In this document: in pieces, positions 8,755 to 36,681 of the stretch
Numbering within the stretch: position 1 is the first letter of the stretch
How the letters are laid out: each line of letters starts with the position of its first letter
Source of the DNA: Chitinophaga caseinilytica
Lineage (GTDB): Bacteria; Bacteroidota; Bacteroidia; Chitinophagales; Chitinophagaceae
Direction of reading: 5' to 3'
Length of the DNA: 64,000 nucleotides
Assembly (NCBI RefSeq): GCF_038396765.1
Contig: NZ_CP150096.1
Coordinates: 3,021,001 to 3,085,000, forward strand
Translations under genes and position numbers: made by a program
Notes under the pieces: generated by a model
Told to the model about the DNA's origin: nothing
What the model saw: the letters and a program-made list of their open reading frames with translations, nothing else
Databases searched by the model: none

Positions 8755-11457
8755 ATGACCATCCACAGAAGAAATTTCCTGAAGCAAGGCGGACTTGCGG
8801 CGGCAGGTATCCTCACGCTGCGCATCCCTGCGTTGGCGGCCACGCAAAAGCCCTACCAGGGCGTGCTTCAGCCTACACATAATATCCCGGCAGATAAATC
8901 CATCGATGCGGCCTGGATCAAAAGTTTGTATGAGCGCGGCGAAACAACCGTATATCGTAAATCCGCCAACGAACTGAAATTTATCGGCATGCCGGCCGGC
9001 GGATTGCATGCCGGAACGGTATACCTCGGAGGCGACGGCCGCCTGTGGCTTTGGCAGGTCTACAACGATCCCCGCGAAGGGATAGACCCTAAAACGGTAT
9101 TGTGGAACGACGGTAAGCAGGAAGTGAAAGTCCGCAACCGCGACGGCGCCTGCTACGTAGAGCCCGCCATCGCCGCCAACAAGCGCGTGCTCGACCAGGG
9201 CTTTGCCCTGAAAATCGAATCCGGCGGCCAGGAATGGACCAAAGAGTTGAAAGAAGACGATTGGCAGGAAGTGACGTTCGAAGCCACGTACCCCGTTGCA
9301 GTGGTGCGTTTCAAGCATAATGCGTTACCGGTGGAAGTGGAAATGTTCGCCGGCGGCGTATTCGTACCGCTGGACGCCGACGATTCCGCTTTGCCCGCCA
9401 CTGTTTTCGATATCCGGATTAAAAATATTTCAGGGAAAGATGTGAAAGTGACGCTGGCCGGATGGCTGGAAAACGGCGCCCGGAAAGTATCCGCCAAAGA
9501 CGGGGAAGGTGAGCGCAGGAACCAGGTTGTAAGAGGCGATGGCTTCATTACGGTACAGGGCTCCTTCGCCGCGGCAGACGGCAGTTCCAACCGCCCGGAC
9601 GATGGCTATACCGCCATCACGCTCGCCGGGGAAACGGGTTTCGCCAATACCAATGCGCAACCCTGGCCGGTAACGTCCGCCTATTTTTCGACACACAGCG
9701 AAGCGCCCGCCACCGGTGCGCCTTCCGGCATCCTGAACGGCGGCATCGCTACGGAAACGAAATCCCTCGCACCGCAAGCCTCCACATCCAGCCGCTTCCT
9801 CCTCAGCTGGCATTTCAACCACCCGCTCGAAAAACTCCACGGCAAACTGAAAGACACTGAAGGCGGGTTCTTCTACGCCGCGCGCTTCAAAGACGCCGCG
9901 GCAGTGGGCAGCTATCTCGCCCGGCACCTCGATCGCCTCTGGGGCGCCACCCTGCGCTGGCGAGATACCTGGTATAATAAATCCACGTTGCCGCATTGGT
10001 TCCTGGAGCGCACTTTCCTCAATATCGGCACCCTGGCCACGGCAAACACCTACCGCTTCGCCAGCGGACGGTTCTGGTCCTGGGAAGGCGTGAACGCCTG
10101 CGAAGGCACCTGCACGCACGTTTGGCAATACGCCCAGGCCATGGGGCGCATCTTCCCCTCGCTGGAGCGCGACACCCGCCAGCGCACCGATCTCGGCATC
10201 GCCATGCAGCCCGACGGCGGTATTATCTTCCGCGCGGAATTCGAAGGCCGACCGGCGATCGACGGACAGGCGGGCACCATTCTCCGCATCTGGCGCGAGC
10301 ATTGCATGAGCGCAGACAACAAGTTCCTCACGCAAAACTGGCCCGCCATCCGCAAAGCCACGCAGTTTATGCTGGCGCAGGATAAAAACGGCGACGGCCT
10401 CACCGATACGCCCATGGAAAATACCCTGGACGCTATCTGGGAAGGCGAGATCGCCTGGATCGCAGGGCTGTGTATCGCAGCGGCGCGGGCGGCGGAAAAA
10501 CTGGCGGAAGACGCTGGCGACAAGGCTTTCGCTAAAATTTGCCGGGAATATGCGGACAAGGGCGGCAGGAATATGTCGCAGTTGTTCAACGGAGAATATT
10601 TCATCCACCGGCCCAATGCCGCGCACGGCCGCAGCAAACTGGGCTCGTACAATACCTGCCACATCGATCAGGTATATGGCCAGAGCTGGGCGTTCCAGGC
10701 GGGGCTCGGGAGGCTGTGGAACAAGGAAGAAACCCTTTCCGCGCTGCGCGCCCTCTGGAAATACAATTTCACGATGGACGTGGGGCCTTACATCAAGACG
10801 CACACCGGCGGCCGCCCTTACGCGGTTGCAGGCGAAGGCGGAATGGTGATGAACACCAATCCGAAAAACGAGGAAAAAGCCTATGGCGATAACGTTACCT
10901 GGCAATTGGGATACTTCCACGAATGTATGTCCGGCTTCGAGCACCAGGTGGCCAGCCACATGATGGCGGAGGGCATGACGGATGAAGCGATGGTGCTCAC
11001 CCGCGTCATCCACGACCGTCACCACGCCGCGCGCCGCAACCCGTTCAACGAGATCGAGTGCAGCGACCACTACGCCCGCGCCATGGCCAGCTACGGCACT
11101 TTCATCACTGCCTGCGGCTTCGATTATCACGGGCCGAAAGGGGAGATCCGCTTCGCGCCGGCGATCGAACAGCCGGTATTCAGCGCGCCGTTTACCGCGG
11201 CGGAAGGCTGGGGCACCTATTCCCAGGAGAACCAATCCGGCGGTAGCCGTACCTGCGAACTGGAACTGGGGTACGGATCGCTCCGGCTCAAAACTTTCAA
11301 AACCGGATCGGCTGCCGCATGGAAAAAAGTGACGGTACAACTGAACGGGAAAACCCTCAAAGCCACGCTGCGCCAGGCAGATGGTACGTCCACAGTAGAG
11401 CTGGCGGATGCGGTGCGCGTGCTGGAAGGACAAAAACTGCAGATCCAATTTTCATAA
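8755..11457 (+). CDS. GH116 family glycoside hydrolase (beta-glucosidase/xylosidase type), Tat-exported
   Basis: A 900-residue enzyme of the GBA2-like GH116 family (catalytic part formerly DUF608). The N-terminus carries a twin-arginine motif, HRRNFLKQ, and a hydrophobic stretch ending in ALAATQ, so folded export to the periplasm is likely. Residues about 45-400 form the beta-sandwich domain and about 415-830 the (alpha/alpha)6 barrel. Glu444 in FWSWEG sits where the family nucleophile is expected, and Asp638 in HIDQVYGQ where the acid/base is expected. The family hydrolyses beta-glucosides, beta-xylosides or beta-GlcNAc with retention; which one applies cannot be read from sequence. It stands alone, divergent from the caspase gene. 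The start is set by the signal sequence. Confidence 0.88.
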   Translation: MTIHRRNFLKQGGLAAAGILTLRIPALAATQKPYQGVLQPTHNIPADKSIDAAWIKSLYERGETTVYRKSANELKFIGMPAGGLHAGTVYLGGDGRLWLWQVYNDPREGIDPKTVLWNDGKQEVKVRNRDGACYVEPAIAANKRVLDQGFALKIESGGQEWTKELKEDDWQEVTFEATYPVAVVRFKHNALPVEVEMFAGGVFVPLDADDSALPATVFDIRIKNISGKDVKVTLAGWLENGARKVSAKDGEGERRNQVVRGDGFITVQGSFAAADGSSNRPDDGYTAITLAGETGFANTNAQPWPVTSAYFSTHSEAPATGAPSGILNGGIATETKSLAPQASTSSRFLLSWHFNHPLEKLHGKLKDTEGGFFYAARFKDAAAVGSYLARHLDRLWGATLRWRDTWYNKSTLPHWFLERTFLNIGTLATANTYRFASGRFWSWEGVNACEGTCTHVWQYAQAMGRIFPSLERDTRQRTDLGIAMQPDGGIIFRAEFEGRPAIDGQAGTILRIWREHCMSADNKFLTQNWPAIRKATQFMLAQDKNGDGLTDTPMENTLDAIWEGEIAWIAGLCIAAARAAEKLAEDAGDKAFAKICREYADKGGRNMSQLFNGEYFIHRPNAAHGRSKLGSYNTCHIDQVYGQSWAFQAGLGRLWNKEETLSALRALWKYNFTMDVGPYIKTHTGGRPYAVAGEGGMVMNTNPKNEEKAYGDNVTWQLGYFHECMSGFEHQVASHMMAEGMTDEAMVLTRVIHDRHHAARRNPFNEIECSDHYARAMASYGTFITACGFDYHGPKGEIRFAPAIEQPVFSAPFTAAEGWGTYSQENQSGGSRTCELELGYGSLRLKTFKTGSAAAWKKVTVQLNGKTLKATLRQADGTSTVELADAVRVLEGQKLQIQFS

Positions 11458-14107: not shown

Positions 14108-14965
14108 TTAGCGCAGGGTCTGCACTTCGTTGATGAGCGTTCCGATGTGGTCGATGCTGATCTCGACGCGGTCGTTGTCGCGCAGGGTGAAGCTGTTGTC
14201 GGGCACGAGGCAGGTGCCGGTCATGAGGAAACAACCGTCGGGGAAGGCGCATCCGCGGAAGAGGAATTCCACCAGTTCGCCATGCCCGCGTTTCATCTGG
14301 CTGATGGCGATGCTGTCGTTATATTTGATTTCCCCGTCCCGGAAGATCGACATGCGGATCATGGTATCCGCCGGAATGGGGGATTCCGGAACGAGCAGGC
14401 AAGGCCCCAGCCCGGCGCATTTCTCGTACACTTTCGCCTGGGGCAGATAGAGCGGGTTTTCTCCTTCGATGCTGCGGGAGCTCATGTCGTTGCCGATCGT
14501 ATAGCCTTCGATGGTGCCTTGTGACGACACGAAAAGCGTCAGTTCCGGTTCCGGTACGTCCCACTTCGAATCGGGCCGGATGAAAACCACTTCCCGGTGC
14601 CCGGAAACGCGGTGCGGCGTGGCTTTGAAGAATAATTCAGGCCGTTCCGCCACGTATACTTTATCGTAGAAGGTGGCGCCGCCCGCATCCTCCGATTCTT
14701 CTATCCGCGCCGTGCGGCTCCTGTAATACGTTACGCCCGCCGCCCAGACTTCTTGCGAACCGATGGGCGCCTGCAAACCTTTGGCGATGGCCTGTTCGGC
14801 AGTATGCGCGTCCAGTGGCCGCATATCCGGCAGTTCGGCCACAACGGCGGCGTAGAGGCCTTTCCGGTTCACGAATTCGTTCCAGCCGGCAGGTGTCGCG
14901 TAGAAACGGCCATCTTGCTGAACGATGATGCCTTCGGATGTTTTATAGATCCTTACTAAGTTCAT
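14108..14965 (-). CDS. 2-dehydro-3-deoxy-D-arabinonate dehydratase (FAH superfamily)
   Basis: A 285-residue fumarylacetoacetate hydrolase-fold enzyme. It follows the archaeal 2-keto-3-deoxy-D-arabinonate dehydratase pattern: [10 protein letters not shown], then [18 protein letters not shown], then [11 protein letters not shown] with the metal-binding acids, then [11 protein letters not shown] and [12 protein letters not shown]. The reaction gives 2,5-dioxopentanoate, which the aldehyde dehydrogenase of the same operon would turn into 2-oxoglutarate. It is the last gene of the seven-gene minus-strand locus, 8 bases after the lipoprotein. The start at 14965 (MNLVRIYK) is preferred over 15022, which would overlap the previous gene. 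The alternative reading as 2,4-diketo-3-deoxy-L-fuconate hydrolase is weaker given the sequence pattern and the dehydrogenase neighbour. Confidence 0.82.
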
Positions 14966-14973
14966 AACGGGGA

Positions 14974-16197
14974 TTATTTTTGTTGGAGGAATTGACGAAC
15001 GGAATCCAGCGGCAGCTGCCACAACTTTTCCGCCAGGGCTTTCAACGCTTCGGCGTCTCCTTCGAAATGCATGGTGACCTGGCTGTATTTCCGCGCCTCA
15101 CCAGGTTTCAGGGCAATAACGTCTGAAGAGGATTCCACTTCATAGAAAGGCCCCATTTGCGTGCCGTCTTCCAGCGGCCCATCATTATAACAATTCACGG
15201 CATCGCCCTTGTACGGTTCCGCCTGGTCTTCCCATTTCGAATTCACGTATTTCCCATTGGGCGTAACATCGTACAGCAGAACGGTGATAGAATTGTTGGC
15301 GAGGTCGATGCTGCCGGCGCCGGTTTTCGCGATGCCCGGCGCGATGCCGAGTTTGCCGCGCGCCTTGCCGTCGGCACGGAACAGCAGCAGGCTGTCGTTC
15401 ACCTGCAGATTGCGCGCGGGGATTTTTCCGAAGTAATCGTCCGTGATCAGTTTGCGGGAATCCGCACCCGGCCGGAAAGGCGCTACCACGGCGGTTTGTT
15501 CAGACGGTTTGAACATGCCGAGGAGCCATATGCTGGGGAGCCCCGTTGTTTCCTGCCAGGCGCTGTCGCCCAGGTTGGAAACCTGGTTTTCGGTCTCGTA
15601 TGCCACGCTGCGCAAGCCTTCCGGCAATGCGATCCCCAGTCTGGATTCGATGGTCTTTTTGTCGAGCAGGCGAACGGTGCGCGCTACGCCGAGCTTGAAG
15701 GTATAACCGGCGTGGTTTTGAATGGTGCCGGTATATTGATAGGAAACTTCGCCCGGAGCTTCCGCCGTTACGTTGTAATGCGCAGTGTCGATCATGCCCG
15801 GCGTTTGCCAGTGCGTGAATTCGTAAGGCTTGCCGGGAGGGAAAAACAGGGCGTACTGGCCGCCTTCCGGCCCGAGCCAGAAGCGTTCTTCGCCGCCGAA
15901 GGCGTTGATGTGCGGCGTCAGTTTGCCGGAACCGATGAGGTCGTAATTGATCCAGCCGAAGCTGTTGCCCGCGTCGCCGGAGGCGGAACTGGTCATCACG
16001 CGGGCCTGGTAATCGCCGGTAACGAGCACGCGGCTACTGTCTCCCGGAAGCTGCAGCACCACTACGTTTTTAAGATGCTGGCGCAGGAAAGCCACGTCTT
16101 CGCCGAAGTTGGCGGGTTTGCCGGGCTGCTTGTTGCCGCTGGTTTGACAACCTGCGATGCCGGCGGTTAATAAACATGCCATGAGTAATGGTTTCAT
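14974..16197 (-). CDS. Secreted lipoprotein of unknown function in the arabinose operon
   Basis: A 407-residue lipoprotein with signal peptide and lipobox ending IAGC at Cys17. The body is beta-rich and resembles a Bacteroidota family I recall as DUF6786; I could not verify this. Stretches such as [17 protein letters not shown] and an early glycan-type sandwich pattern are reminiscent of aldose 1-epimerase-like folds, but no catalytic His/Glu set is certain. It sits between the dehydratase genes with 36 and 8 base gaps, so it is co-transcribed with a sugar acid pathway although it should be outside the cytoplasm. A role in binding or handling the released sugar is inference only. Confidence 0.6.
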
Positions 16198-16233
16198 ATC
16201 GTTCGGATTGTTTGTTACGGTTATGATGCGGGA

Positions 16234-17838
16234 TCAGAGCGAGACGCCCCGTTTCCAGGGGATGAAATCGTCCTGTTCCAGCAATTGCGCCTTGGCGGTG
16301 TAATGCCCGCTGGCGGAGGAAATGAGCAGTTCCATGATGCGGTCGGCCGCCTGCTCGAGGGTTTCGTCGCCATTGATGATCGGCCCCGTGTCCAGGTCGA
16401 TGATGTCGGGCATTTTGGCGGCGAGCCGCGAATTGGTGGAAAGCTTCAACACGGGCGTCACGGGGTTGCCGGTTGGCGTGCCGAGGCCGGTGGTGAACAA
16501 TACCACGTTCGCGCCGGCGCCTACTTCCGCCGTCGTCGATTCCACGTCGCTGCCGGGCGTGCACAGGAGGGCCAGTCCGGGCCGCTGCACCCATCCGGGA
16601 TAATCGATCACATCGGTAACGGGAGAGGAGCCTCCTTTCCGCGCGGCGCCGGCCGATTTGATGGCGTCGGTGATGAGGCCGTCGCGGATGTTGCCTGCGG
16701 ATGGATTGGAGTCGAATCCCGAGCCCACGGCCTCCGCGCGGGCGGCATACGTTTTCATCAGCCCGGTGTATTTTTCGGCGAGCCCTGTATTCACACATCT
16801 GTCGCTCAATTCCTGTTCAACACCGCAAAGCTCCGGGAATTCGGACAAGATCACCGATCCCCCCAACGCCACGATCCTGTCTGCCACTTTACCCACCGCA
16901 GGGTTGGCGGAAATGCCGGAAAACCCGTCGCTGCCGCCGCATTCCATGCCTACGATCAGTTTGCTCAGCGGCGCGGGTTTGCGTTCCTGCGCATTGGCTT
17001 TCGCCAGTCCGTCGAACGTTTGCCGCATCGCCTGCTCTATCAGCAGTTTTTCCGTGCCTTCCTGCTGCTGCTCGAGGATCACGAGGGGCCTGTCGTACCC
17101 CGGCGACCGCTTTTCGATCTCTTCCCGCAACATCGCCACCTGCGCGTTCTGGCAACCGAGGCTGAGCACGGTAGCGCCGGCAACGTTGGGATGCGTCACG
17201 TACCCGGCGAGGATGCCGCAAAGCGTGCGGGCATCGTCTTTGGTGCAGCCGCAGCCCATGGTGTGGGTCAGCAGTTTGATGCCGGTGACCTGCGGGAATG
17301 GGCGGCTGGAGGCCGATTCGGCTTGTGAAGTATGTTTGCCGCCGTGAAGCATTTCCTGCAGGAGGGATTCGTACGGATTGCCTTTTTGATAGCCCAGGCC
17401 TTTCGTGAGCGTTTCGTGGAGCAATTGCACGTTCCGGTTTTCGCAGAACACCAGCGGCAGGATGATCCAGTAATTGCCGGTGCCCACGCGGCCGTCTGAC
17501 CGGTGGTACCCCAGAAAACTGCGGTCTTTCCAGGTGCTCACATCGGGTGCCTGCCAGTCCGTTTTCCGTTCTGCCCGCACGCCGAAATTTCCTGATGCGT
17601 GGCGGACGTTGGCGGTGGAAATGAGTTCCCCGGGCGGGAGGTCTTCCTTCGCCTGCCCCACGAGCACGCCGTACATGATCACGTCGCCGTTTTGGGGGAT
17701 GAAGGTAGTGGTAAGTTTGTGTTTGGCAGGTACGTCGCGGAGCGCGGTGACGCCGCCGGCCGGGGTGCCTTTCGGAACGTCCTGCAGGGCCACGATCACA
17801 TTGTCTGCCGGGTGGATCTGAAGTATTTGCTGACGCAT
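16234..17838 (-). CDS. UxaA-family (altronate dehydratase type) sugar acid dehydratase
   Basis: A 534-residue dehydratase with an N-terminal SAF domain (about 1-95) and the UxaA/GarD catalytic region (about 105-530). Typical elements are GRVGTGNYW, a THTMGCGC motif with several Cys for the metal, GLGCQNAQ, VGMECGGSDGFSGISANPA and FTTGLGTPTGNPV. The family dehydrates D-altronate or galactarate to the 2-keto-3-deoxy acid. Next to a KDA dehydratase and a dioxovalerate dehydrogenase the likely substrate is D-arabinonate, which has the same C2-C4 configuration as D-altronate. That substrate is inference. It starts 6 bases after the SDR gene. Confidence 0.82.
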   Translation of the reverse strand: MRQQILQIHPADNVIVALQDVPKGTPAGGVTALRDVPAKHKLTTTFIPQNGDVIMYGVLVGQAKEDLPPGELISTANVRHASGNFGVRAERKTDWQAPDVSTWKDRSFLGYHRSDGRVGTGNYWIILPLVFCENRNVQLLHETLTKGLGYQKGNPYESLLQEMLHGGKHTSQAESASSRPFPQVTGIKLLTHTMGCGCTKDDARTLCGILAGYVTHPNVAGATVLSLGCQNAQVAMLREEIEKRSPGYDRPLVILEQQQEGTEKLLIEQAMRQTFDGLAKANAQERKPAPLSKLIVGMECGGSDGFSGISANPAVGKVADRIVALGGSVILSEFPELCGVEQELSDRCVNTGLAEKYTGLMKTYAARAEAVGSGFDSNPSAGNIRDGLITDAIKSAGAARKGGSSPVTDVIDYPGWVQRPGLALLCTPGSDVESTTAEVGAGANVVLFTTGLGTPTGNPVTPVLKLSTNSRLAAKMPDIIDLDTGPIINGDETLEQAADRIMELLISSASGHYTAKAQLLEQDDFIPWKRGVSL

Positions 17839-17844
17839 GTTGGT

Positions 17845-18639
17845 TTAAGGTTGAAGGGATTGTAATGCACGGTCGAGATGAACGTAGCCGCCGTCTACAT
17901 GGAGGAGCTGGCCCGTGGTGTGACTGGATTTTCCTGACAGCAGGAACGCCGTCATCTGCGCGATTTCCTCCGGCGTCGTCATCCTGTTTTCCAGCGGGAT
18001 GCGGGACACGATGGAGGCGAGTTTTGCTTCTTTGTCCCCGAAAGTATTGATCCAGTTTTCGTACAGCGGCGTCCACGATTCCGCGACGATGATCGCGTTG
18101 ACGCGGATGCTCCAGGGGAGCAATTCCACCGCCCATTCGCGGGTGAGTGCGTTTCTGCCGCCATTCGCCGCTGCATAAGCAGACGTATTGCCCTGGCCGG
18201 TTTCCGCCGTTTTGGAACTGATGTTGACGATGGCGCCGTGGCTTTCCTTGAGCATGGGCAGCGCATGATGCGCCATCAGGTAATAATGCACGAGGTTGCG
18301 GTGGATCGATCGCATGAAGGCTTCGTACGATCCGGACGCGAGCCCCACGCCATCATTGATGCCCGCATTGTTGACGAGCCCGTCTATCCGCTCGAATTGC
18401 TTTACTACCGCCTCAACGGCGCGTTTGCAGGCTTCGGGGTCGGTGAGCTCGGCAGCGGTTTGCCAGCCTTTTCCACCGGCAGCCTGGATGTTGGAAAGAT
18501 GTTGCAGATTGTCGGCTTCGCTTCTGCCGACGATAACGGGAATGGCGCCTTCCTGCGCCAGTACCGCCGAAATGGCCGCGCCGATGCCTTTGGCACCGCC
18601 GGTCACGATAATTACTTTGTCCTGTAAGCCAAGGTCCAT
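17845..18639 (-). CDS. SDR oxidoreductase, candidate D-arabinose/L-fucose 1-dehydrogenase with altered active site
   Basis: A 264-residue Rossmann short-chain dehydrogenase. The nucleotide motif TGGAKGIG (13-20) and NNAG (90-93) are present. Active-site Ser141/142 and Tyr155 are in place, but the residue four after the tyrosine is Asn159 (YAAANGG) where the family has Lys. The pathway context calls for oxidation of an aldopentose at C1 to the lactone. L-fucose dehydrogenases of this family also accept D-arabinose, which shares C2-C4 stereochemistry. The gene lies 39 bases after the aldehyde dehydrogenase and 6 before the dehydratase. Substrate is inferred; an inactive or differently acting SDR cannot be excluded. 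Confidence 0.75.
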   Translation of the reverse strand: MDLGLQDKVIIVTGGAKGIGAAISAVLAQEGAIPVIVGRSEADNLQHLSNIQAAGGKGWQTAAELTDPEACKRAVEAVVKQFERIDGLVNNAGINDGVGLASGSYEAFMRSIHRNLVHYYLMAHHALPMLKESHGAIVNISSKTAETGQGNTSAYAAANGGRNALTREWAVELLPWSIRVNAIIVAESWTPLYENWINTFGDKEAKLASIVSRIPLENRMTTPEEIAQMTAFLLSGKSSHTTGQLLHVDGGYVHLDRALQSLQP

Positions 18640-18678
18640 AACGTGTGGTATGAGGGTTTATTGAATATGCTGATCCGT

Positions 18679-20229
18679 TCAGGAAATGGCTGCGCGCTGC
18701 CAGTCGCCGTTCACCATCCGCCAGATGTTCCGCGGGTTTTCGTTGCGTAGCTCTTCCGGCAACATATGCCCCGGAAAATCCTGGAAACACACCGGCCGCG
18801 TGAACCGGTAGATCGATGCCGTGCCAACGGAAGTGCCGGCGCCGGGCGTAGCTGCGGGCCATGGCCCCCCGTGCACCATGGCGTGGTTCACGGCCACGCC
18901 TGTCGGGAAGCCGTTCACGAGCAGGCGCCCCGCTTTTTCGCGGAGGATGTCTGCCAGTGGCGCATGGCGATCGAGATCGGCCGGTGTACCGTGGATGGAC
19001 GCAGTGAGCTGCCCTTCCAGGGCTTCGGCGAAAACGGAAAGACCGGCGGCATCGTCGCAAAGCACGAGCAGTCCCGCCGGACCGAAAACTTCATGCAACA
19101 TGCCGGGTGTTTTCAATACTTTGTTCAATGACGTACGCATCATCACCGGCGCGGCTTTGCCGGCAACATCGGCGCCTTTGCAAACCGGCAGCGCGCCCAG
19201 GTCGGCGAGGCGTTGCAGGCCAGACTGGTAGGCGTTCAGGATCCCCGGGGTGAGCATAACGCCCGCCGCCAGCTGGGCGATGCCGGCTTCGAGGGCTTTG
19301 ATCAATTCGTTCCCATCGCCGACGGCTACGATCACACCGGGATTGGTACAGAATTGCCCTACGCCCATGGTGAGCGATTGCAAATATTGCGCAGCGAAGG
19401 TAGCGGCGTTTTCGGCCAGCATATCCGGGAGGAGGAAAATTGGGTTAACGCTGCCCATTTCTGCATAAACGGGGATGGGCACAGGCCGTTGCGCGGCCGT
19501 TTCGAAAAGCGCCTTCCCGCCCCCGAACGATCCGGTGAAAGCGATGGCGCGCAATTGCGGATGGCGGGCCAGGTGTTGTCCTGTTTCAACAGTGGCGCCG
19601 TGAACAAGACTGAAAACCCCTTCCGGCATACCGGTTTCTTTGGCAGCTTCGAGGATGGTTTTTGCGACGAGGTGCGAAGTATGCGGATGGGCGGGATGGG
19701 CTTTGCAGACCACAGGGCACCCGGCCGCAAGGGCGGCCGCAGTATCGCCGCCGGCCACCGAAAAGGCGAGGGGAAAATTGCTCGCGCCGAAAACGGCTAC
19801 CGGTCCCAGCGGGATTTGCATCTGCCGGATGTCTGGCGCGCCGCGGTCGATCCGCGCATGTACCCAGGAGCCTTCTTCGATGGTTTTCGCGAAAAGCCGG
19901 AGCTGGTTGGCCGTCCGGTCGCGCTCGCCGTTGAGCCTTGCCAGGGGCAGGCCGCTTTCTGCCGAAGCGGTCTGGAGGAGCGTTTCGCCGAGGGCTTCGA
20001 TCCCCGATGCGATGGCGCGGAGGAATGCGGCGCGCGCCGTGGCCGTGGTTTTCTTGTATGCCGGGAACGCTTTGGCCGCGAGGGCTACGGCCTGGTCCAC
20101 TTCCGCGGGCGTTGCTTCATGGAATGGCTGCGGGAGCCATTGCTGTTCGGCGGGGTTCCAGGCGCGGAAGGTTTGTGTGCCTTCCGCAGTCTGGCGGTTC
20201 CCGATCATCTGTGATCCGATTGTATGCAT
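18679..20229 (-). CDS. 2,5-dioxovalerate (alpha-ketoglutaric semialdehyde) dehydrogenase
   Basis: A 516-residue aldehyde dehydrogenase of the group that includes KGSADH. Catalytic Cys294 lies in GVGQFCTNPG, general base Glu257 in VYAEMGSVNP and the oxyanion Asn151 in GASNFPLAF; the co-factor loop reads AFTGSFGGGKAL. The EMGSVNP and FCTNPG combination is typical of KGSADH rather than of betaine or succinate semialdehyde enzymes. It would oxidise the product of the downstream KDA dehydratase to 2-oxoglutarate, closing a Weimberg-type route. It begins 20 bases after the GH172 gene; an internal ATG at 20208 is an alternative start. Confidence 0.85.
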   Translation of the reverse strand: MHTIGSQMIGNRQTAEGTQTFRAWNPAEQQWLPQPFHEATPAEVDQAVALAAKAFPAYKKTTATARAAFLRAIASGIEALGETLLQTASAESGLPLARLNGERDRTANQLRLFAKTIEEGSWVHARIDRGAPDIRQMQIPLGPVAVFGASNFPLAFSVAGGDTAAALAAGCPVVCKAHPAHPHTSHLVAKTILEAAKETGMPEGVFSLVHGATVETGQHLARHPQLRAIAFTGSFGGGKALFETAAQRPVPIPVYAEMGSVNPIFLLPDMLAENAATFAAQYLQSLTMGVGQFCTNPGVIVAVGDGNELIKALEAGIAQLAAGVMLTPGILNAYQSGLQRLADLGALPVCKGADVAGKAAPVMMRTSLNKVLKTPGMLHEVFGPAGLLVLCDDAAGLSVFAEALEGQLTASIHGTPADLDRHAPLADILREKAGRLLVNGFPTGVAVNHAMVHGGPWPAATPGAGTSVGTASIYRFTRPVCFQDFPGHMLPEELRNENPRNIWRMVNGDWQRAAIS

Positions 20230-20249
20230 GTGTCAAACATTTATATAGA

Positions 20250-21386
20250 TCAATTCACTTCCAGCTGGTCTTTCGGTTGCAGCTTCGGGAACGGCGCATG
20301 CGGCTCGCGCTGGTACCAGAACACGACCGAGCTGATGTCTGACTGCTGCGGCAAATACCGGCCACCGCTCCGCCAGCCCAGGTCCTGGATGGTGATTTTC
20401 AGTTCCTTGTCGAAGCGGATGGGGTCCATGATATGCCAGCGGTACAATCCGAACCGCTGCTGCGACTTGTAGAGCCCGTCCGGCCGGATCACCTGGTGCA
20501 AGCCCGCATACGGTGTAGTGAATTCCTGGTATTTCCCCTTGTTGTCGAAATTGTAGGAGCCGCAGAAATAATCTTCCGTCCCGGTGCCGCAGATCGTGGG
20601 GAATTTGCCGTCGCCGTCCATGAAAAACTTGATCTCGCCTTCTCCCCACCAGCCGTTGTTATTCACGCCCCAGGCCATGTAGGTGCCCACATAATGCCCC
20701 TTTCCCTTTATGCCGTCGATCAGCGTGAATTCCGCGTTTTTGACGGGGTTGTTTCGGCGGAACTGCGCGTGGAAATATGCCGCGTCGTCGGGCACCTGCG
20801 TGAGCGTGTAGTCGACCTGGTAGTAGAGCGTCATCCTTTCCGTATTGATGTTTTCCATGGTGATCTTACACTTCTTCCGGAAGGGCATGGGCCAGTAGCA
20901 GTTGAATGCGCTGCCGGGATTGACGGTTACGGGCAGGGATGTCAGTTGTGCGAATTCTCCCCATCCCATCCCGAAGAAATCGCCGACGGGCACTTCTACG
21001 CTGGGCGTGGTTTCATCGTCCCAATAGAAGCGGAGTATGGAATAGCGCCAGTTGCCGGTGGGCGTCATCCAGATATGCTGAATGGCGCCGGACGCGTTGA
21101 TTTCCGCGAGGGTAAACGTTTGTCCGGGCTCGATGTGCACGTAGGGATTCACTTTCCATCCCTGTCCGAGATCGCGCGCGGCGCCGCGTGCGTTGCCCTG
21201 TTCGAGGGTGGCCATGCCGCCCTTGCCGGGCTCGCCGGTAAAGTTTTCCGGGGAAATGGAGCGGGTTTTGGCGTCGGATAAACGGTGGAGGTTGCCCAGG
21301 TTCATGTCGAGCCCGTTAAAAGGCTGCTGCGCTGCCGACACGAGGGCCAGGCAGGCGCAAAAGGAGAGAAGGAGCAGTGTTTTCAT
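20250..21386 (-). CDS. GH172 (DUF2961) glycoside hydrolase, candidate alpha-D-arabinofuranosidase
   Basis: A 378-residue protein with signal peptide (cut near ALVSAAQ) and the DUF2961/GH172 jelly-roll domain: SFEN-like start, GAIQHIWMT, FYWDDETTPSVEVPVGDFFG, then the conserved GTGTEDYF and a late WYQ. GH172 members cleave difructose dianhydride or alpha-D-arabinofuranosides, including mycobacterial arabinan and arabinogalactan. As first structural gene of an operon for 2-keto-3-deoxy-D-arabinonate metabolism, D-arabinofuranosidase is the most coherent assignment. It follows a LacI gene and has a LacI-type operator 27 bases upstream. Family assignment is firm, substrate is inference. Confidence 0.85.
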   Translation of the reverse strand: MKTLLLLSFCACLALVSAAQQPFNGLDMNLGNLHRLSDAKTRSISPENFTGEPGKGGMATLEQGNARGAARDLGQGWKVNPYVHIEPGQTFTLAEINASGAIQHIWMTPTGNWRYSILRFYWDDETTPSVEVPVGDFFGMGWGEFAQLTSLPVTVNPGSAFNCYWPMPFRKKCKITMENINTERMTLYYQVDYTLTQVPDDAAYFHAQFRRNNPVKNAEFTLIDGIKGKGHYVGTYMAWGVNNNGWWGEGEIKFFMDGDGKFPTICGTGTEDYFCGSYNFDNKGKYQEFTTPYAGLHQVIRPDGLYKSQQRFGLYRWHIMDPIRFDKELKITIQDLGWRSGGRYLPQQSDISSVVFWYQREPHAPFPKLQPKDQLEVN

Positions 21387-21413
21387 AATGTGTATCGTTT
21401 GAAAGGTTTTCCG

Positions 21414-21427
21414 CTTTATCGATTAAG
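21414..21427. promoter_or_regulatory. LacI-type operator upstream of GH172
   Basis: CTTTATCGATTAAG is an imperfect inverted repeat centred on CG. It matches 11 of 14 positions of the perfect palindrome before the LacI gene. It lies between that regulator and the GH172 operon it most likely controls. Confidence 0.6.
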
Positions 21428-21485
21428 CGCCCTTAACTTCGACGGTTTCCATGCACGTGGCGTATTCAGTATTTTGATGGATGGT

Positions 21486-22505
21486 TCAATTGGCTGCGCT
21501 GGAACGGCGCACTACCAGTTCCGCATCTATCCGGATGTCTTCCGGCGGCCGTTCACTATCGGCGATCTGGCTGAGCAGCAGTTGCACCGCGGCTTTGCCC
21601 ATTTCCCGGATAGGTTGGCGGATGAAGGTGACGGGCGCGTGGAACAGGTCGAACGCCTCGCTTTCATCGAAGCTTACTACCGCCAGTTGCTCCGGCACGC
21701 GGATGCCCAGTTCGCTGATATACCGCAGCCCTTCGATTGCAAGACTGTTCGTGGCGAAAAACAGTGCGTCGGCCGGATGTTTGCCGCCGGTCAGCTGGTC
21801 GATCGCTTTGCGGATATCTTCGCGCAGGTGGCTGTACCGCGCCAGTTTGAGGCGCTTTTCCGTTTTCAGTCCGGCGTTGGCAAGGGCTACTTCGAAACCC
21901 CTGCGGCGTTCGGCGATGTGGTGAAGGCTGGTTTGGTACGCGATCATACCGATGCGTTTGCGGCCGGTGCGCAACAGGTGCTCCACCGCATTGTACGAAG
22001 CGCCGAAGTTGTTGATGCTGATGCTGCTGGCGGCGATGGAAGGGAACGGCCGGTCCATGAGCACGAACGGGAAGTGGCGCTCGCTGAGCTGGAGGATCTG
22101 CTGTTCGGAACCTTCCGAGGGGATAACGATCAGCCCGTCTACCTGCCGGTTCAGCAATACATTAATAAGGTCGGCGGATTTTTCCGCGTTTTCGTCGGAG
22201 CTGCCGAAGATGACGGTGATGTTGTGCCGTTTGGCTTCGTCTTCCACGATCCGGGCGATCTGTCCGAAGAAAGGGTTGGAGATGTCTGCCACGATGAGGC
22301 CGATGGTGTCTGTCCGCCCGCTTTTCAGGCTGCGGGCGAGGTAGTTGGGCTGGTAATTGAGCTTCCGCGCGATCTTCCTGATCTTGTTCGCCATTTCCCG
22401 CCCCACCCGGGCCTTCTCCTCTTTATTCGTCAACACATAGGATACCAGCGCCGTGGATACCCCGGCTTCCTGTGCGATGTCTTTCAGGGAGACTCTCTTC
22501 TTCAT
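21486..22505 (-). CDS. LacI-family transcriptional regulator
   Basis: A 339-residue repressor with an N-terminal helix-turn-helix (residues 5-28, LKDIAQEAGVSTALVSYVL), the hinge helix PNYLARSLKSGRT, and a periplasmic-binding-protein-like sugar domain from about 62 to 335 (IGLIVADISNPFF, DGLIVIPS, VLMDRP). It is encoded directly before the GH172/arabinose operon on the same strand, with a perfect palindrome 14 bases upstream of its own start, so autoregulation and control of that operon are likely. The inducer is probably a pentose or pathway intermediate; that is inference. Confidence 0.9.
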   Translation of the reverse strand: MKKRVSLKDIAQEAGVSTALVSYVLTNKEEKARVGREMANKIRKIARKLNYQPNYLARSLKSGRTDTIGLIVADISNPFFGQIARIVEDEAKRHNITVIFGSSDENAEKSADLINVLLNRQVDGLIVIPSEGSEQQILQLSERHFPFVLMDRPFPSIAASSISINNFGASYNAVEHLLRTGRKRIGMIAYQTSLHHIAERRRGFEVALANAGLKTEKRLKLARYSHLREDIRKAIDQLTGGKHPADALFFATNSLAIEGLRYISELGIRVPEQLAVVSFDESEAFDLFHAPVTFIRQPIREMGKAAVQLLLSQIADSERPPEDIRIDAELVVRRSSAAN

Positions 22506-22519
22506 GAAATAAATATAAG

Positions 22520-22533
22520 CTTAAACGTTTAAG
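22520..22533. promoter_or_regulatory. Perfect palindromic LacI-type operator
   Basis: CTTAAACGTTTAAG is a perfect 14-base palindrome with the central CG step typical of LacI-family sites. It lies 14 bases upstream of the LacI start and about 10 bases before the -33 box of the divergent small gene, so both may be controlled. Confidence 0.75.
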
Positions 22534-22542
22534 TAAGCAAGT

Positions 22543-22576
22543 TTTGCCGTCGAAAATCATTTTTTGGCTACATTTG
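22543..22576 (+). promoter_or_regulatory. Promoter of the small hypothetical gene
   Basis: TTTG (22543-22546) and an exact TACATTTG (22569-22576) are separated by 22 bases, slightly long. Transcription would start about 12 bases before the ATG at 22595. Confidence 0.55.
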
Positions 22577-22594
22577 CCGCTCATTTTTAGACAC

Positions 22595-22867
22595 ATGAGT
22601 TCATTAGGCTGGAAGTTAATCAGGAGTTTCGACAAGGATTTTGAAGTGAACGGAGAATCCGTGCGGGTACGTTTCGTGACGATGAATTGCGTGCATAAGC
22701 AATTGTACCAGGTGTATGTGCCGCACGAAGGCAGGGAAGTGCGTTTCCACATTCAGGAGAACGCCGCGGGGGAATTCAGGATCGTAGGCCGGGGGATTTG
22801 TCCGCCGCAGTACGTTCCCCTGGAAGCCGCGTTCGCCGAAGCGATCCTCGCATCGCCGGTAGGCTGA
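22595..22867 (+). CDS. Small hypothetical protein
   Basis: A 90-residue protein that I do not recognise. It looks globular and mixed: GWKLIRSFDKDFEVNGESVRV, a middle strand pair, and a C-terminal EAAFAEAILASP helix. The ATG at 22595 was chosen because a promoter with an exact -7 box ends just upstream; an earlier ATG at 22544 would lie inside the promoter. It is divergent from the LacI gene and ends near the AraC terminator. Codon use matches the surrounding genes, so it is probably real. Confidence 0.65.
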   Translation: MSSLGWKLIRSFDKDFEVNGESVRVRFVTMNCVHKQLYQVYVPHEGREVRFHIQENAAGEFRIVGRGICPPQYVPLEAAFAEAILASPVG

Positions 22868-22919: not shown

Positions 22920-23789
22920 TCAATCCGGCAGCGAGCGCACGTATTCCCGCGGGGTCATGCCTTTTATTTCCCGGAAAAAGCGGTTAAAGTTAGACAGGCT
23001 GTTGAACCCGCATTCATACGCCAGTCCCGAAATGGCAAGCTCGCCTTCCGCCAGCAGCTTGCAGGCATGCCCTATCCGCACTTCATTGACGAACGACACG
23101 AACGTTTTCTGCGTCCGGCTTTTGAAATACCGGCAAAACGCCTGCTTGTTCATGTTCACGAGGCGCGACACCTCGTCTAGCTGGATCTCGCTCTTGAAAT
23201 TTTCGAACACAAACTTGAACACCGTATCGATCCGGTCATTGTCTTTCGCCTGGTAAGTATTCACATAGCCCTGGCTGGCCAGCAGTTCGAATTCCCGCGT
23301 ACGGGTGAGCACGTCGAGCACGCGCATGAAGGAAATGAGCTGCGCGAAGGGCGGCTGCTCCGTCATCTCGAGCAATAACGATTTTAACGTCCGTTTCGCC
23401 TGTCCCGAAAATTTCATCCCCCGCCTCGATTTCTTCAGCAGCAATTCCGTTTGCCGCCCCAGCCCGAAATGCGTCATGGAGGCCAGGAGCTTGTCTGGCT
23501 CGATGAAAAGCGCCACGGACCGGGCGTGCTGGTAATTATTCCGGTCGAAATACCGGCTGTCGTTATGCCAGACATGCGGAATGTCCGGCCCCAGCAGAAT
23601 CAGCTCATCGCTGTCGAAATTCTCCACACTGTCGCCGATGATGCGCCGTCCTTCGCTTTCCACCACGTACACGAGCTGGCATTCCTTATGGAAATGAAAC
23701 TCCGTCGAGAAATACGGCAGGTCGATCACCCGCATCGCAAACACGCCCATGTGGGCCTCTTCCTGTATTTTGGTGAAAACCGGCTTCAT
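22920..23789 (-). CDS. AraC-family regulator, likely controlling the fucose locus
   Basis: A 289-residue regulator with an N-terminal cupin sensor (LPYFSTEFHFHKECQLVYVVESEG, then PDIPHVWHND) and a C-terminal AraC helix-turn-helix pair (about 185-285; LDEVSRLVNMNKQAFCRYFKSRTQ and ISGLAYECGFNSLSNFNRFFREIKG). The start at 23789 (MKPVFTKI) is preferred to an upstream ATG at 23882 because the cupin begins there and the longer form has an unrelated leader. It is divergent from the L-fucose genes with 231 bases between, the usual arrangement of an activator and its target. The inducer may be fucose or fuconate (inference). Confidence 0.85.
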   Translation of the reverse strand: MKPVFTKIQEEAHMGVFAMRVIDLPYFSTEFHFHKECQLVYVVESEGRRIIGDSVENFDSDELILLGPDIPHVWHNDSRYFDRNNYQHARSVALFIEPDKLLASMTHFGLGRQTELLLKKSRRGMKFSGQAKRTLKSLLLEMTEQPPFAQLISFMRVLDVLTRTREFELLASQGYVNTYQAKDNDRIDTVFKFVFENFKSEIQLDEVSRLVNMNKQAFCRYFKSRTQKTFVSFVNEVRIGHACKLLAEGELAISGLAYECGFNSLSNFNRFFREIKGMTPREYVRSLPD

Positions 23790-23939
23790 ATTGATGGAAT
23801 TTAAATTATCCGGGATATTACATGCTAATATAAGCGTAAATCTGAAATCCCCGTAACAAATCTGAATTTCTATTGCCTCCAATTATTAAAATGATGTGAC
23901 AAACTTGCTAATATAGGCGCAGAAGTCATCAACGGTCCG

Positions 23940-24020: not shown

Positions 24021-24818
24021 ATGCCTGGATTAATAATGGAAAGAATGAAAGACATGCTGAAGGATAAGGTAGTCCTGCTCACGGGCGGGGCAGACGGTAT
24101 CGGTTGGGAATGCGCATTGGCCTACGCTTCCGCAGGTGCAAAGGTCTGCATCGCAGACCTGAATGCCGCGGGGCGCGACAAGCTGGCGAAGCTGCCGGGG
24201 GAAGGGCATTCCTTCCTGTTGTGCGACGTAACTTCCGACACGGCCGTAGGCCAGTTGTTCGCGGAGATCGGGAAAGTGTACGGTAAGCTGGACGCGGTCC
24301 ACAATAACGCTGGTATCGCGCAGCCCGCCAGGCCGCTGCACGATACGGAAGATGCAGAATGGGAAGCCCTCATGCGGGTGAACCTCAAAAGCATCTACCT
24401 CACCACCCGCCACGGCATCGCCCTGCTGCGCGCATCCAACGGCTGCATCCTGCACACCAGCTCGCTCGTAGGCAGCATCGGGCAGGAGAACCACGCCGCC
24501 TACGTTGCCACGAAAGGCGCCGTGAACGCGCTCACCAAAGCGATGGCGCTCGATTATGCGGCAGACGGCATCCGTGTCAACGCCGTGGCGCCCGCCGCCA
24601 TCCGCACGCCCATGCTCGAAGCCTGGAGCGCCGAACAGCCGCAGCCGGAAATCATGCAACGGTATCTCGACCGCCTTCAGCCGCTGGGCGCCATGCCCGC
24701 CGGCGACGTGATCGCCGACGCCTGCGTGTTCCTGCTCAGCGACGCCGCCCGCTTCATCACCGGTTGCATCCTGCCCGTAACGGGCGGCGCGGAACTGGGG
24801 TACCGGGCCATGATCTGA
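24021..24818 (+). CDS. SDR oxidoreductase of L-fucose catabolism
   Basis: A 265-residue short-chain dehydrogenase with TGGADGIG, NNAG and the complete Ser-Tyr-Lys set (TSSLVGS, YVATK). First gene of the fucose operon, 15 bases before L-fuconate dehydratase. In the non-phosphorylative fucose route two SDR steps exist: L-fucose to fuconolactone, and 2-keto-3-deoxy-L-fuconate to the 2,4-diketo acid; which one this is cannot be decided by eye. The first ATG (24021) is given; in-frame ATGs at 24036, 24045 and 24054 are possible, and the last fits the family length best. Confidence 0.85.
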   Translation: MPGLIMERMKDMLKDKVVLLTGGADGIGWECALAYASAGAKVCIADLNAAGRDKLAKLPGEGHSFLLCDVTSDTAVGQLFAEIGKVYGKLDAVHNNAGIAQPARPLHDTEDAEWEALMRVNLKSIYLTTRHGIALLRASNGCILHTSSLVGSIGQENHAAYVATKGAVNALTKAMALDYAADGIRVNAVAPAAIRTPMLEAWSAEQPQPEIMQRYLDRLQPLGAMPAGDVIADACVFLLSDAARFITGCILPVTGGAELGYRAMI

Positions 24819-24833
24819 CATTTCTTTCATTAC

Positions 24834-26054
24834 ATGATAAAAAACATCGACATCGCAGACGCCCGGTTTGCGCTGAAAAACGGCGCCGGCAGCGACGCCG
24901 TGCACAAAGATCCGCAATACGCCTATGCCGTCACGCACCTGCAGAACGAACAGGGGCAACGCGGCACAGGGCTCGCATTCACGCTCGGAGAAGGCAACGA
25001 CCTCGTTTGCCGCGCCGCCCGGTTTTACGCCGAAACCCTCCGCGGGAAAGACATCGAAACGCTCATGAGCAACTTCGGCAGCACCTTCCACGCACTGGCC
25101 AACGAACAACAGTTCCGCTGGCTGGGGCCGCACAAGGGCGTCGTCCACCTCGGCCTCGCTTCCGTCACCAACGCGTGCTACGACCTCTGGGCCAAACAGC
25201 GCGGCGTTCCCCTCTGGAAGCTGCTGATCGGCTTATCGCCCGAAAGCATTGTCAATACGCTCGACCTTTCTTATCTCGAAGATGTGCTCACCCGTGAGGA
25301 AGCCATCGCTATGTTGACCGAAGCTTCGGAAACGGCGGCCGGCCGGATGGGGATCCTCGAAAAAGGATATGCCGGGTACGATACTTCCGTAGGTTGGTTC
25401 AATTACGACGACGAGCAAGTGCGCGAGAATTGCAAACGCGCGCTGGACCAGGGTTTCGAAGCCATGAAACTGAAAGTGGGCTCCGCCGATCCGAAGCGCG
25501 ACATCCGCCGGGCCAACATCGTCCGCCAAACCGTCGGCGATTCCGTAAAAGTGATGCTCGACGCCAACCAGCAATGGAACCTCCCGCAGGCCATTTCCAT
25601 CTGCAACGAACTGAAGCAGATGCAGCCGTATTGGGTAGAAGAGCCGACGCATCCAGACGATGTGCAGGCGCACGTGACGCTGGCGAAAGCCGTAGCCCCG
25701 GTGAAACTCGCGCTGGGAGAGCATGTTCCCAACCGCGTGATCTTCAAGAACTACCTGCAATCGGGCTGCGCGGGGTTCATGCAGGTGGATGCCGTGCGGG
25801 TAGGAGGGGTGAGCGAATTCATCACCATCAGCCTGCTGTGCAAAAAGTTCGGCGTGCCGGTAGTACCGCACGTGGGCGACATGGGGCAGCTGCATCAGCA
25901 CCTCGTGTTGTTCAACCACATCGCCATGGGGCATGAAGCACTTTTTCTCGAACATATCCCGCATCTGAAGGAGCATTTCCTCCACCCGGTCCGCATCGAA
26001 AACGGCGTGTACGTTACACCGCAGGAACCGGGCAGCAGTTGCGACTTAAAATAA
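24834..26054 (+). CDS. fucD: L-fuconate dehydratase (enolase superfamily)
   Basis: A 406-residue enolase-superfamily acid sugar dehydratase converting L-fuconate to 2-keto-3-deoxy-L-fuconate. Catalytic and metal residues are visible: Lys212/Lys214 in MKLKVG, Asp243 in DANQQW, Glu269/270 in WVEEPTHPDD, Glu296 in LGEHV and His346 in VPHVGDMGQLHQH. The HPDD and GDMGQLHQH motifs are those of fuconate dehydratases. Slightly shorter at the N-terminus than the Xanthomonas enzyme as I remember it. Known fuconate dehydratases also accept D-arabinonate, which matters for the neighbouring operon. Confidence 0.9.
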   Translation: MIKNIDIADARFALKNGAGSDAVHKDPQYAYAVTHLQNEQGQRGTGLAFTLGEGNDLVCRAARFYAETLRGKDIETLMSNFGSTFHALANEQQFRWLGPHKGVVHLGLASVTNACYDLWAKQRGVPLWKLLIGLSPESIVNTLDLSYLEDVLTREEAIAMLTEASETAAGRMGILEKGYAGYDTSVGWFNYDDEQVRENCKRALDQGFEAMKLKVGSADPKRDIRRANIVRQTVGDSVKVMLDANQQWNLPQAISICNELKQMQPYWVEEPTHPDDVQAHVTLAKAVAPVKLALGEHVPNRVIFKNYLQSGCAGFMQVDAVRVGGVSEFITISLLCKKFGVPVVPHVGDMGQLHQHLVLFNHIAMGHEALFLEHIPHLKEHFLHPVRIENGVYVTPQEPGSSCDLK

Positions 26055-26069
26055 TCCAATAATCCACGT

Positions 26070-27707: not shown

Positions 27708-27724
27708 CCATGTTTAAAAACGTT

Positions 27725-29026: not shown

Positions 29027-29044
29027 TCTTTTTAAACGCAATAC

Positions 29045-29443
29045 ATGAGAACGGTTTTCGTTTTGCTCATCGTGATGCTGGCCGCAGGTTGTGCGGAAAA
29101 GAAGACGGAGCGCTTCGGGATGGTGACCGGCATCAAACCCGAAAAGATCGCCTATTACAAGCAGTTGCATGCCCATGTCTGGCCGGGCGTGGTGAAAACC
29201 ATCGAGGCATGCAATATTCGCAATTACTCCATTTATCTGAAAGAGATGGATGGAAAAACATATCTGTTCAGTTATTTTGAGTACACAGGAAACGATTTCG
29301 CCGGAGATATGAAGAAGATGGCGGCAGACACGGTCACGCAGCGTTGGTGGAAAGAAACCGCTCCCGCGCAGATCCCCCTGCCAGACGCGGCCGCAACCGG
29401 CGAAACGTGGTCGAAGCTCGAAGAAGTGATGCACCTGCCTTGA
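29045..29443 (+). CDS. Lipoprotein L-rhamnose mutarotase-family enzyme (probable periplasmic L-fucose mutarotase)
   Basis: A 132-residue protein: a lipoprotein signal ending in LAAGC (Cys16) is followed by a complete RhaM/DUF718 domain (KPEKIAYYKQLHAHVWPGVVKTIEACNIRNYSIYL, then YLFSYFEYTG). The family interconverts alpha and beta anomers of 6-deoxy-L-sugars. The catalytic His of the family corresponds to the HAHVWP segment. It sits between two fucosidases, 18 and 30 bases away, so L-fucose is the likely substrate. Typical members are cytoplasmic; a membrane-anchored form would act where the fucosidases release the sugar. Confidence 0.85.
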   Translation: MRTVFVLLIVMLAAGCAEKKTERFGMVTGIKPEKIAYYKQLHAHVWPGVVKTIEACNIRNYSIYLKEMDGKTYLFSYFEYTGNDFAGDMKKMAADTVTQRWWKETAPAQIPLPDAAATGETWSKLEEVMHLP

Positions 29444-29473
29444 AATAGTCAACCAGCACAGTAAGCAATATCC

Positions 29474-30976: not shown

Positions 30977-31022
30977 GAAGTCCAGTTATTTAATTAAAAT
31001 TTGAGAGAATTTCCAGAGACCG

Positions 31023-31044
31023 GCATCCCGATTTTTCGGGATGC
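31023..31044 (+). terminator. Hairpin between GH29 and GH95-like genes
   Basis: GCATCCCGA and TCGGGATGC (31023-31031, 31036-31044) form a perfect 9-base stem with a TTTT loop. Only TTCCTC follows, so it may be an mRNA-stabilising or partial terminator element inside the operon. Confidence 0.5.
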
Positions 31045-36671: not shown

Positions 36672-36681
36672 AGTCAGTTAT

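Follow-up and report, generated by a model that had tools for sequence, protein, structure and literature searches.

A LacI-headed operon of Chitinophaga caseinilytica that probably joins D-arabinofuranose release to D-arabinose oxidation

The window analysed here is a 64,000-nucleotide stretch of Chitinophaga caseinilytica DNA (C1:3021001-3085000) from a genome that consists of a single contig of 6.5 Mb. It contains an operon of seven co-directional genes on the reverse strand, which encode a LacI-type regulator, a GH172 glycoside hydrolase, an aldehyde dehydrogenase (ALDH), a short-chain dehydrogenase/reductase (SDR1), a UxaA-family sugar-acid dehydratase, a DUF6786 lipoprotein and a protein of the FAH fold (Table 1). 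The original prediction had listed these genes in this order with gaps of 6-100 bases. All seven open reading frames (ORFs) were recovered, with gaps of 99, 20, 39, 6, 36 and 8 bp from lacI to FAH, and their families were confirmed using Pfam and NCBIfam models. The longest FAH ORF reaches position 15022, and homologue alignments begin at the ATG at 14965. We consider it likely that the operon serves the exo-release of D-arabinofuranose and the oxidation of D-arabinose to 2-oxoglutarate. The gene set, families, active-site residues, palindromes and conservation described below were read from the sequence; all activities, flux, inducer, repression and transport are inferred.

Table 1. Positions of the operon genes, the proposed operators and neighbouring features within the window.
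Feature	Position	Strand	Basis or remark
lacI	21486-22505	-	PF00356 and Peripla_BP_3; first gene of the operon; operator-like palindrome upstream
GH172 (DUF2961), predicted exo-alpha-D-arabinofuranosidase	20250-21386	-	PF11175; ExoMA1 match
ALDH, by context 2,5-dioxopentanoate (alpha-ketoglutaric semialdehyde) dehydrogenase	18679-20229	-	PF00171
SDR1, L-fucose-dehydrogenase-like, Asn replacing catalytic Lys	17845-18639	-	NF052481; YAAAN motif
UxaA/GarD-family sugar-acid dehydratase, proposed D-arabinonate dehydratase	16234-17838	-	PF20629/PF04295/SAF
DUF6786 lipoprotein, predicted galactose-mutarotase-like fold	14974-16197	-	DUF6786 family; fold
FAH (FAA_hydrolase), KdaD-type	14108-14965	-	SsKdaD 2q18 match and active-site residues
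Operator 1 (proposed), halves TACTTAAAC and GTTTAAGCT	22518-22535	-	centre 21 bp upstream of lacI start
Operator 2 (proposed), halves CGCTTAATC and GATAAAGCG	21412-21429	-	between lacI and GH172
AraC gene	22920-23882		between lacI and divergent L-fucose operon
Divergent L-fucose operon	24021-33296	+	SDR2, L-fuconate dehydratase (enolase superfamily), SSS symporter, GH29, rhaM-type mutarotase, GH29, GH95
Window GH116	8755-11457	+	nearest ExoMA2, 215 bits, next 50

The GH172 protein reached 329.7 bits against PF11175 (cut-off 27), and its best match among all PDB sequences was ExoMA1 (8ic8; 431 bits, with 152 for the difructose anhydride enzyme aFFase1), to which 195 of 346 aligned residues are identical (56%). 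Residues E249, E271 and N279 correspond to E223, E245 and N253 of ExoMA1, so that the catalytic Glu pair and the specificity Asn are kept; Gly299 of aFFase1, which admits fructose, corresponds to Asn279, and we take E270 and E291 to be the catalytic residues of that enzyme. According to PMC10509167, fructofuranose is blocked by Asn253 of ExoMA1, a position that is Gly in aFFase1. Conserved catalytic Glu pairs are also reported for DgGH172c. A survey of GH172, in which the matches listed gave 80 kept loci, some on short contigs, yields counts that are to be read as "at least"; among the 84 GH172 proteins of these loci the specificity position is Asn in 60, Asp in 14 and Cys in one, and the motif was not found in nine. 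The nearest named relative among the matches listed is that of C. deserti (93%). Membership of the ExoMA1 clade and the retained Asn agree with the D-arabinofuranose release predicted originally, and the enzyme, whose N-terminus looks like a signal peptide by eye, is probably exported and is likely to release D-arabinose from glycans resembling those of the mycobacterial cell wall.

Cleavage of an arabinan-type polymer, which had been claimed in the same breath, was not supported, as a search for a GH183 endo-D-arabinanase gave 0 matches in this genome and the operon holds no SusC/D pair. Controls for that search were silent in the genome itself, and it was repeated across the genus so that the model could match, which it did in 36 of 79 Chitinophaga genomes (34 over the cut-off), mostly weakly or partially. 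With no GH183 found in the genome, attack on the polymer is unproven, and GH172, being an exo-enzyme, would only trim chain ends.

The FAH protein has as its best PDB match the archaeal 2-keto-3-deoxy-D-arabinonate (KDA) dehydratase SsKdaD (2q18; 195 bits, next 62), with 97 of 218 residues identical (45%). Its E110, E139, E141, D160 and K178 correspond to E114, E143, E145, D164 and K182 of SsKdaD, so that five of five active-site residues are kept; the published site comprises a Glu114/Lys182 dyad and metal ligands at Glu143, Glu145 and position 164 (PMC9795676), the last printed there as Glu164 and present as Asp in the SsKdaD chain. Five FAH-family proteins occur in the genome, and two of the others (at loci L164 and L166) carry an H-A-K-E stretch, missing from the operon protein in the alignment, whose spacing agrees with that of His83 and Glu86 in a diketo-acid hydrolase (PMC6336799). 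Of these two, the one encoded at a separate L-fucose locus scored 355 bits against a diketo-deoxy-rhamnonate hydrolase model (cut-off 500). The earlier identification of the operon protein as a KDA dehydratase thus gains from its nearest relative and from its active site, which together point to that activity.

The ALDH matched PDB entries 3v4c/1eyy at 430 bits (next 87), and motifs GQFC from residue 291 and EMGS at 257 supply the expected Cys and Glu. In the UxaA protein, the GD_AH second and C-terminal domains were found at 127 and 298 bits. Seven Cys are common to this protein, its paralog in the genome and the UxaA of a Runella plasmid, and four of them (132, 196, 229 and 300) roughly resemble in order and spacing, positions alone being compared, the four conserved Cys (134, 173, 208 and 276) of C785_RS13685. 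The paralog, the second of two UxaA-family proteins in the genome, is 55% identical to the operon protein and lies near a KDPG-aldolase-type gene and an MFS-like gene (N-terminus reading), a neighbourhood as expected for uronate use. In a search of plasmids for UxaA, of which 40 of 319 records were listed, the 35 listed matches from outside the Bacteroidota are 34-46% identical. UxaA-type dehydratases specific for D-arabinonate are known (PMC6336799); the type is known for D-arabinonate and D-altronate, and the bacterial D-xylonate and L-arabinonate dehydratases named in the literature are of the IlvD/EDD type (PMC6336799, PMC9795676). We propose that the operon UxaA is a D-arabinonate dehydratase.

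Dehydration of an acid derived from L-fucose would give a ketone, not an aldehyde, and the pair of FAH and ALDH therefore fits a pentose; the pentose-type end at 2-oxoglutarate of the original prediction is in keeping with this, the ALDH being assigned by context.

The sixth gene had been described as encoding a lipoprotein, a description that overlooks the galactose-mutarotase-like fold predicted for DUF6786. With regard to the catalytic His and Glu of mutarotases, H377 is the sole invariant His among 35 DUF6786 sequences, as read from the sequences rather than from a residue-level structural alignment. DUF6786 occurs at 24 of the 80 GH172 loci listed, and no paper on it was found in searches of the open-licence PMC literature. 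At one locus (L067:7263-10964), GH116 and DUF6786 are joined in a single ORF of 1233 residues, with no signal peptide at the junction by eye.

Control by LacI, also part of the original prediction, is borne out by conserved operator-like palindromes before lacI and GH172. All 16 of the oxidative Chitinophaga loci that were scanned have a palindrome with the halves TGCTTAAAC and GTTTAAGCA 18-21 bp before the script-placed lacI start (15 of these loci are distinct, L037 and L140 being apparently one contig), and a similar one precedes GH172 in 14 of the 16, not being found in L123 and L142. Within the window, the exact sequence TTAAACGTTTAA occurs only at operator 1, and the pattern with two mismatches is not rarer than chance, so that the operators are argued for by where they lie and by their conservation.

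Conservation was surveyed in 79 Chitinophaga genomes (E <= 1e-30), among which the FAH protein occurs in 31, GH172 in 63 and the isomerase FucI in one. In 27 of these 31 FAH-positive genomes, GH172 is followed at a distance of no more than 6 kb by the FAH gene in the same orientation, with a gap of 5.2-5.8 kb in 23, 3.6 kb in three and 2.9 kb in one; in the eight of the 23 long-gap loci for which gene content was read (the window, L128, L133-L135 and L140-L142), set and order are unchanged, with broken frames in L128. An identical set and order of seven genes was found at six of the 80 GH172 loci listed, all six in Chitinophaga. This shared order and the linkage of GH172 to FAH argue that the grouping is more than chance. 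The four unlinked Chitinophaga FAH genes each lie behind a DUF6786 gene, one of them in the set ALDH-DUF6786-FAH-GH116 (L130). Reshuffled sets occur in three other genera, as ALDH-UxaA-DUF6786-FAH-FucP-GH172 (L191), GH172-FAH-DUF6786-FucP-SDR1 (L192, and similarly L194 of the same genus) and DUF6786-FAH-GH172 at a contig end (L195). More broadly, the FAH protein was present in 33 of 395 Bacteroidota genomes drawn. Regions of about 1.5 kb per side, fetched for 19 of the 33 matches (the window's own excluded), held ALDH in six (L175, L179, L181, L182, L187 and L188), DUF6786 in three (L172, L174 and L178) and GH172 in one (L178). On the Runella plasmid, the set AraC-FAH-ALDH-UxaA stands alone.

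A second type of GH172 locus carries an isomerase and a kinase. Among the 80 loci listed, a FucP-like permease occurs at 18, FucI at eight, an FGGY kinase at six and the UxaA-ALDH-FAH module at six; FucI and the module were together at none of the 80, and most carry neither. The one such locus found in the genus, that of Chitinophaga genome G229 (L127), reads LacI-GH172-DUF6786-FucI-FucP-kinase-GH116. The one kinase tested (L063) is of the ribulokinase type (NF003154, 678 bits, cut-off 428; 30 bits against the L-fuculokinase model), which fits a route from D-arabinose through D-ribulose to D-ribulose-5-phosphate better than L-fucose. Operator-like sites similar to those above were found at FucI loci L127, L063, L081 and, less clearly, L062, and a locus with neither route (L070) has a partial palindrome before GH172 only. 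The palindromes shared by oxidative and FucI loci speak for a single type of regulator in the two routes, perhaps with a common inducer, and both routes fit D-arabinose as the substrate.

Several observations weigh against the assignment to D-arabinose oxidation. SDR1 scored 416 bits against the NF052481 L-fucose dehydrogenase model (cut-off 300), and its catalytic YxxxK is YAAAN, with Asn in 18 of 18 distinct loci read, including L192, L194 and L063 (three loci repeating others were counted once). This Lys is normally needed in SDRs, and it is kept in 6drr, in the L-fucose dehydrogenase paralog of the same genome (65-66% identical to SDR1) and in 4gkb (58% identical), which we take to be BmulJ_04919; 4gkb thus has YxxxK where SDR1 has YxxxN. 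BmulJ_04919 is an L-fucose dehydrogenase (PMC10079672). In a tree of 17 SDR sequences, a branch (90/92; recovered in 87% of 200 bootstrap trees) sets the 13 Asn forms apart, with long branches at L063 and 6drr that leave their place unsure. An SDR1-type protein is also encoded at L063, where the isomerase/kinase route requires no 1-dehydrogenase. Given the Asn at the position of the Lys, the step that makes the SDR a D-arabinose dehydrogenase is doubtful, and its original description as an ordinary sugar dehydrogenase was not supported; the first oxidation may fall to the 2.73 Mb paralog or to an SDR1 of unusual kind. No report of a YxxxN sugar SDR was found in searches of the open-licence PMC literature.

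Further points on the same side concern the other enzymes and the distribution of the genes. The ALDH falls below the NCBIfam equivalogs (110 of 750 bits for NF052305 and 108 of 770 bits for NF042993), models that may not cover its 1eyy/3v4c-like type, so that its role is taken from context. No NCBIfam equivalog supports the proposed UxaA substrate (the galactarate dehydratase model gave 251 of 731 bits), and no transporter gene was found in the operon. D-xylose yields the same D-2-keto-3-deoxypentonate (D-KDP) and KdaD relatives are present in many haloarchaea, so FAH alone does not fix the sugar. The exact sugar of the L063 kinase is uncertain as well, since its score lies only a little below the cut-off of a further model, for L-ribulokinase (568 of 583 bits). 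UxaA is missing at the short-gap loci of three genomes (L124-L126), the closest relative, G239 (L123), has GH172, ALDH, DUF6786 and FAH without SDR1 and UxaA at the operon, and a linked FAH is absent from 36 of the 63 Chitinophaga genomes with GH172. Of the Weimberg-like D-arabinose route coupled to arabinan cleavage that was first proposed, the release, the KDA dehydratase, LacI control and the pentose end are supported, but not the SDR and polymer cleavage; these two apart, the reading of release plus oxidation is well supported by comparative evidence.

Three other explanations were weighed. The divergent operon beyond the AraC gene, overlooked in the original prediction, serves L-fucose: its L-fuconate dehydratase matches the human homologue and L-fuconate dehydratases of solved structure at 346-361 bits, and its SDR2 reaches 144 of 300 bits in the L-fucose dehydrogenase model. 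The seven genes might then be part of L-fucose (or L-galactose) catabolism and give this neighbour, which has no FAH gene, its missing L-fucose dehydrogenase and diketo-fuconate hydrolase. The model score of SDR1 and the gene content of the neighbour favour this, as does a locus of a Chitinophagaceae metagenome-assembled genome (L046:653-4731) in which GH172 is directly followed by an L-fuconate-dehydratase-like gene and an SSS symporter. We nevertheless regard it as unlikely, since a K-type L-fucose dehydrogenase, a lactonase candidate, a hydrolase-type FAH, an SDR and a FucP are already encoded together at a separate locus (2.728-2.734 Mb), the operon FAH has the KdaD dyad rather than the H-A-K-E stretch, and a dioxopentanoate-type ALDH would be useless in L-fucose Route III. 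We know of no GH172 that releases L-fucose, and as the main role of the operon L-fucose was rejected on account of the separate locus.

Only slightly better placed, and still improbable, is the view that the substrate of the oxidative genes is a different pentose or a sugar acid (D-xylonate, L-arabinonate or free D-arabinonate), with GH172 as an unrelated neighbour. It draws on the Runella plasmid, on the haloarchaeal KdaD-type proteins and on the GH172-positive genomes without linked FAH; it is countered by the linkage in 27 of 31 genomes, seen again in reshuffled form in other genera, by the palindromes common to the lacI and GH172 upstream regions, and by the IlvD/EDD type of the D-xylonate and L-arabinonate enzymes noted above. 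Least probable is that GH172 cleaves alpha-D-fructofuranosides of the difructose anhydride type in an operon for a fructose-derived sugar: the family was founded on a difructose dianhydride I synthase/hydrolase (PMC8605356), but the bit scores favour ExoMA1 over aFFase1, the fructose-admitting Gly is Asn here as in ExoMA1, and the oxidative genes fit an aldopentose. A fructofuranosidase role was rejected on account of Asn279.

Under the preferred reading of D-arabinofuranose release and D-arabinose oxidation, exported GH172 would trim terminal alpha-D-arabinofuranose off oligosaccharides, and the DUF6786 lipoprotein would most likely act on the anomer or ring form of the released sugar. D-arabinose would be imported by a permease, of the FucP type in several relatives and here probably the product of another gene. 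Its conversion through D-arabinono-lactone to D-arabinonate would fall either to SDR1 or to the candidate L-fucose dehydrogenase and lactonase encoded at 2.73 Mb. The UxaA-type dehydratase would then yield KDA, the KdaD-type FAH 2,5-dioxopentanoate and the ALDH 2-oxoglutarate, and LacI would act as a repressor at the two operators for as long as D-arabinose or a derivative of it is lacking. Of the oxidative Route II set, candidates for the dehydratase, KDP dehydratase and alpha-ketoglutaric semialdehyde (KGSA) dehydrogenase are in the operon, and the 1-dehydrogenase is doubtful (SDR1) or elsewhere. The lactonase, which the original prediction had allowed to be encoded elsewhere, has a candidate at the L-fucose locus (L164:7346-8176; NF052480, 314 bits, below the cut-off of 400).

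As to transport, a FucP-like gene follows FAH in L027, L030, L031, L086, L134 and L141, and none was seen there in L028, L037/L140, L123-L126, L133 and L142. The FucP-type gene at the L-fucose locus of this genome is 51-52% identical to the operon permease of the relatives, and an SSS transporter gene lies at 26070. The GH116 protein of the window keeps E444, H455 and D559 at the positions of the ExoMA2 nucleophile Glu431, His446 and Asp557 (the published numbering is shifted by 4 relative to the PDB chain), and has Asp487 in place of the substrate-binding Arg483, for which reason it was dropped as a beta-D-arabinofuranosidase partner. The closest relative (L123) has a GH116 of 95% identity in the corresponding position. 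The GH116 proteins beside other Chitinophaga operons (L028, L030, L124, L125, L126, L140 and L142) keep the Arg stretch, and that of L130 scored 354 bits to ExoMA2. Elsewhere in the window, a 107-residue ORF (22544-22867, +; possible internal Met start) between the lacI operator and the AraC gene reads away from lacI, a row at 33363-40703 (-) comprises a GH38-domain protein, a sugar-type MFS permease and a long ORF with a ROK-kinase-like start, and a FecR/SusC/SusD-like row at 43218-51016 (+), judged from N-termini, is perhaps a glycan-uptake locus.

Each step of the pathway is already known singly, and an oxidative D-arabinose route has been described in archaea and Burkholderiales (PMC6336799); no report of its coupling to GH172 was found in searches of the open-licence PMC literature. 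Dysgonomonas gadei PUL42 and the Microbacterium arabinogalactanolyticum D-arabinan locus share with the operon a GH172 exo-alpha-D-arabinofuranosidase and D-arabinose catabolic genes (PMC10115798, PMC10509167), and a further likeness is the GH116 of the ExoMA2 type beside several Chitinophaga operons. Both, however, have GH183 endo-enzymes, of which none was found in this genome, and their sugar metabolism differs from the oxidative operon in that the Microbacterium locus has a putative isomerase and kinase, and on D-arabinan no carbohydrate-active protein of D. gadei is more abundant than a predicted fucose isomerase of PUL42. Route II of Herbaspirillum and Paraburkholderia shares the UxaA/GarD-family D-arabinonate dehydratase, an FAH-superfamily KDP dehydratase and the KGSA dehydrogenase end, although its FAH protein is of the COG3970 type, poorly related to the archaeal type found in the operon, and the Paraburkholderia 1-dehydrogenase is an aldo/keto reductase, not an SDR (PMC6336799). 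Unlike in Route II, a glycoside hydrolase heads the structural genes in Chitinophaga. Saccharolobus (Sulfolobus) solfataricus contributes the KdaD likeness described above, whereas its 1-dehydrogenase is of the medium-chain dehydrogenase/reductase type and its D-arabinonate dehydratase of the enolase type (PMC6336799).

We tentatively suggest, as a possibility that may well prove wrong, that GH172 loci of the Bacteroidota have a release and regulatory core (LacI, operator, GH172, DUF6786 and FucP) that takes either an isomerase/ribulokinase or a UxaA-KdaD-ALDH module for D-arabinose, with the Asn-type SDR in a new, perhaps non-dehydrogenase or Lys-independent, D-arabinose job and DUF6786 as a periplasmic D-arabinofuranose mutarotase. 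If so, the sugar-burning half of a D-arabinan-type locus would be exchangeable under the same type of LacI operator, with sensing and release retained. The operon would be a compact and testable source of D-arabinose enzymes, and two well-posed questions for enzymology arise from the SDR, with its conserved replacement of Lys by Asn, and from the lipoprotein with the mutarotase fold. If the proposed pathway is true, Chitinophaga and its relatives would turn a sugar of the actinobacterial cell-wall type directly into an intermediate of the citric acid cycle.

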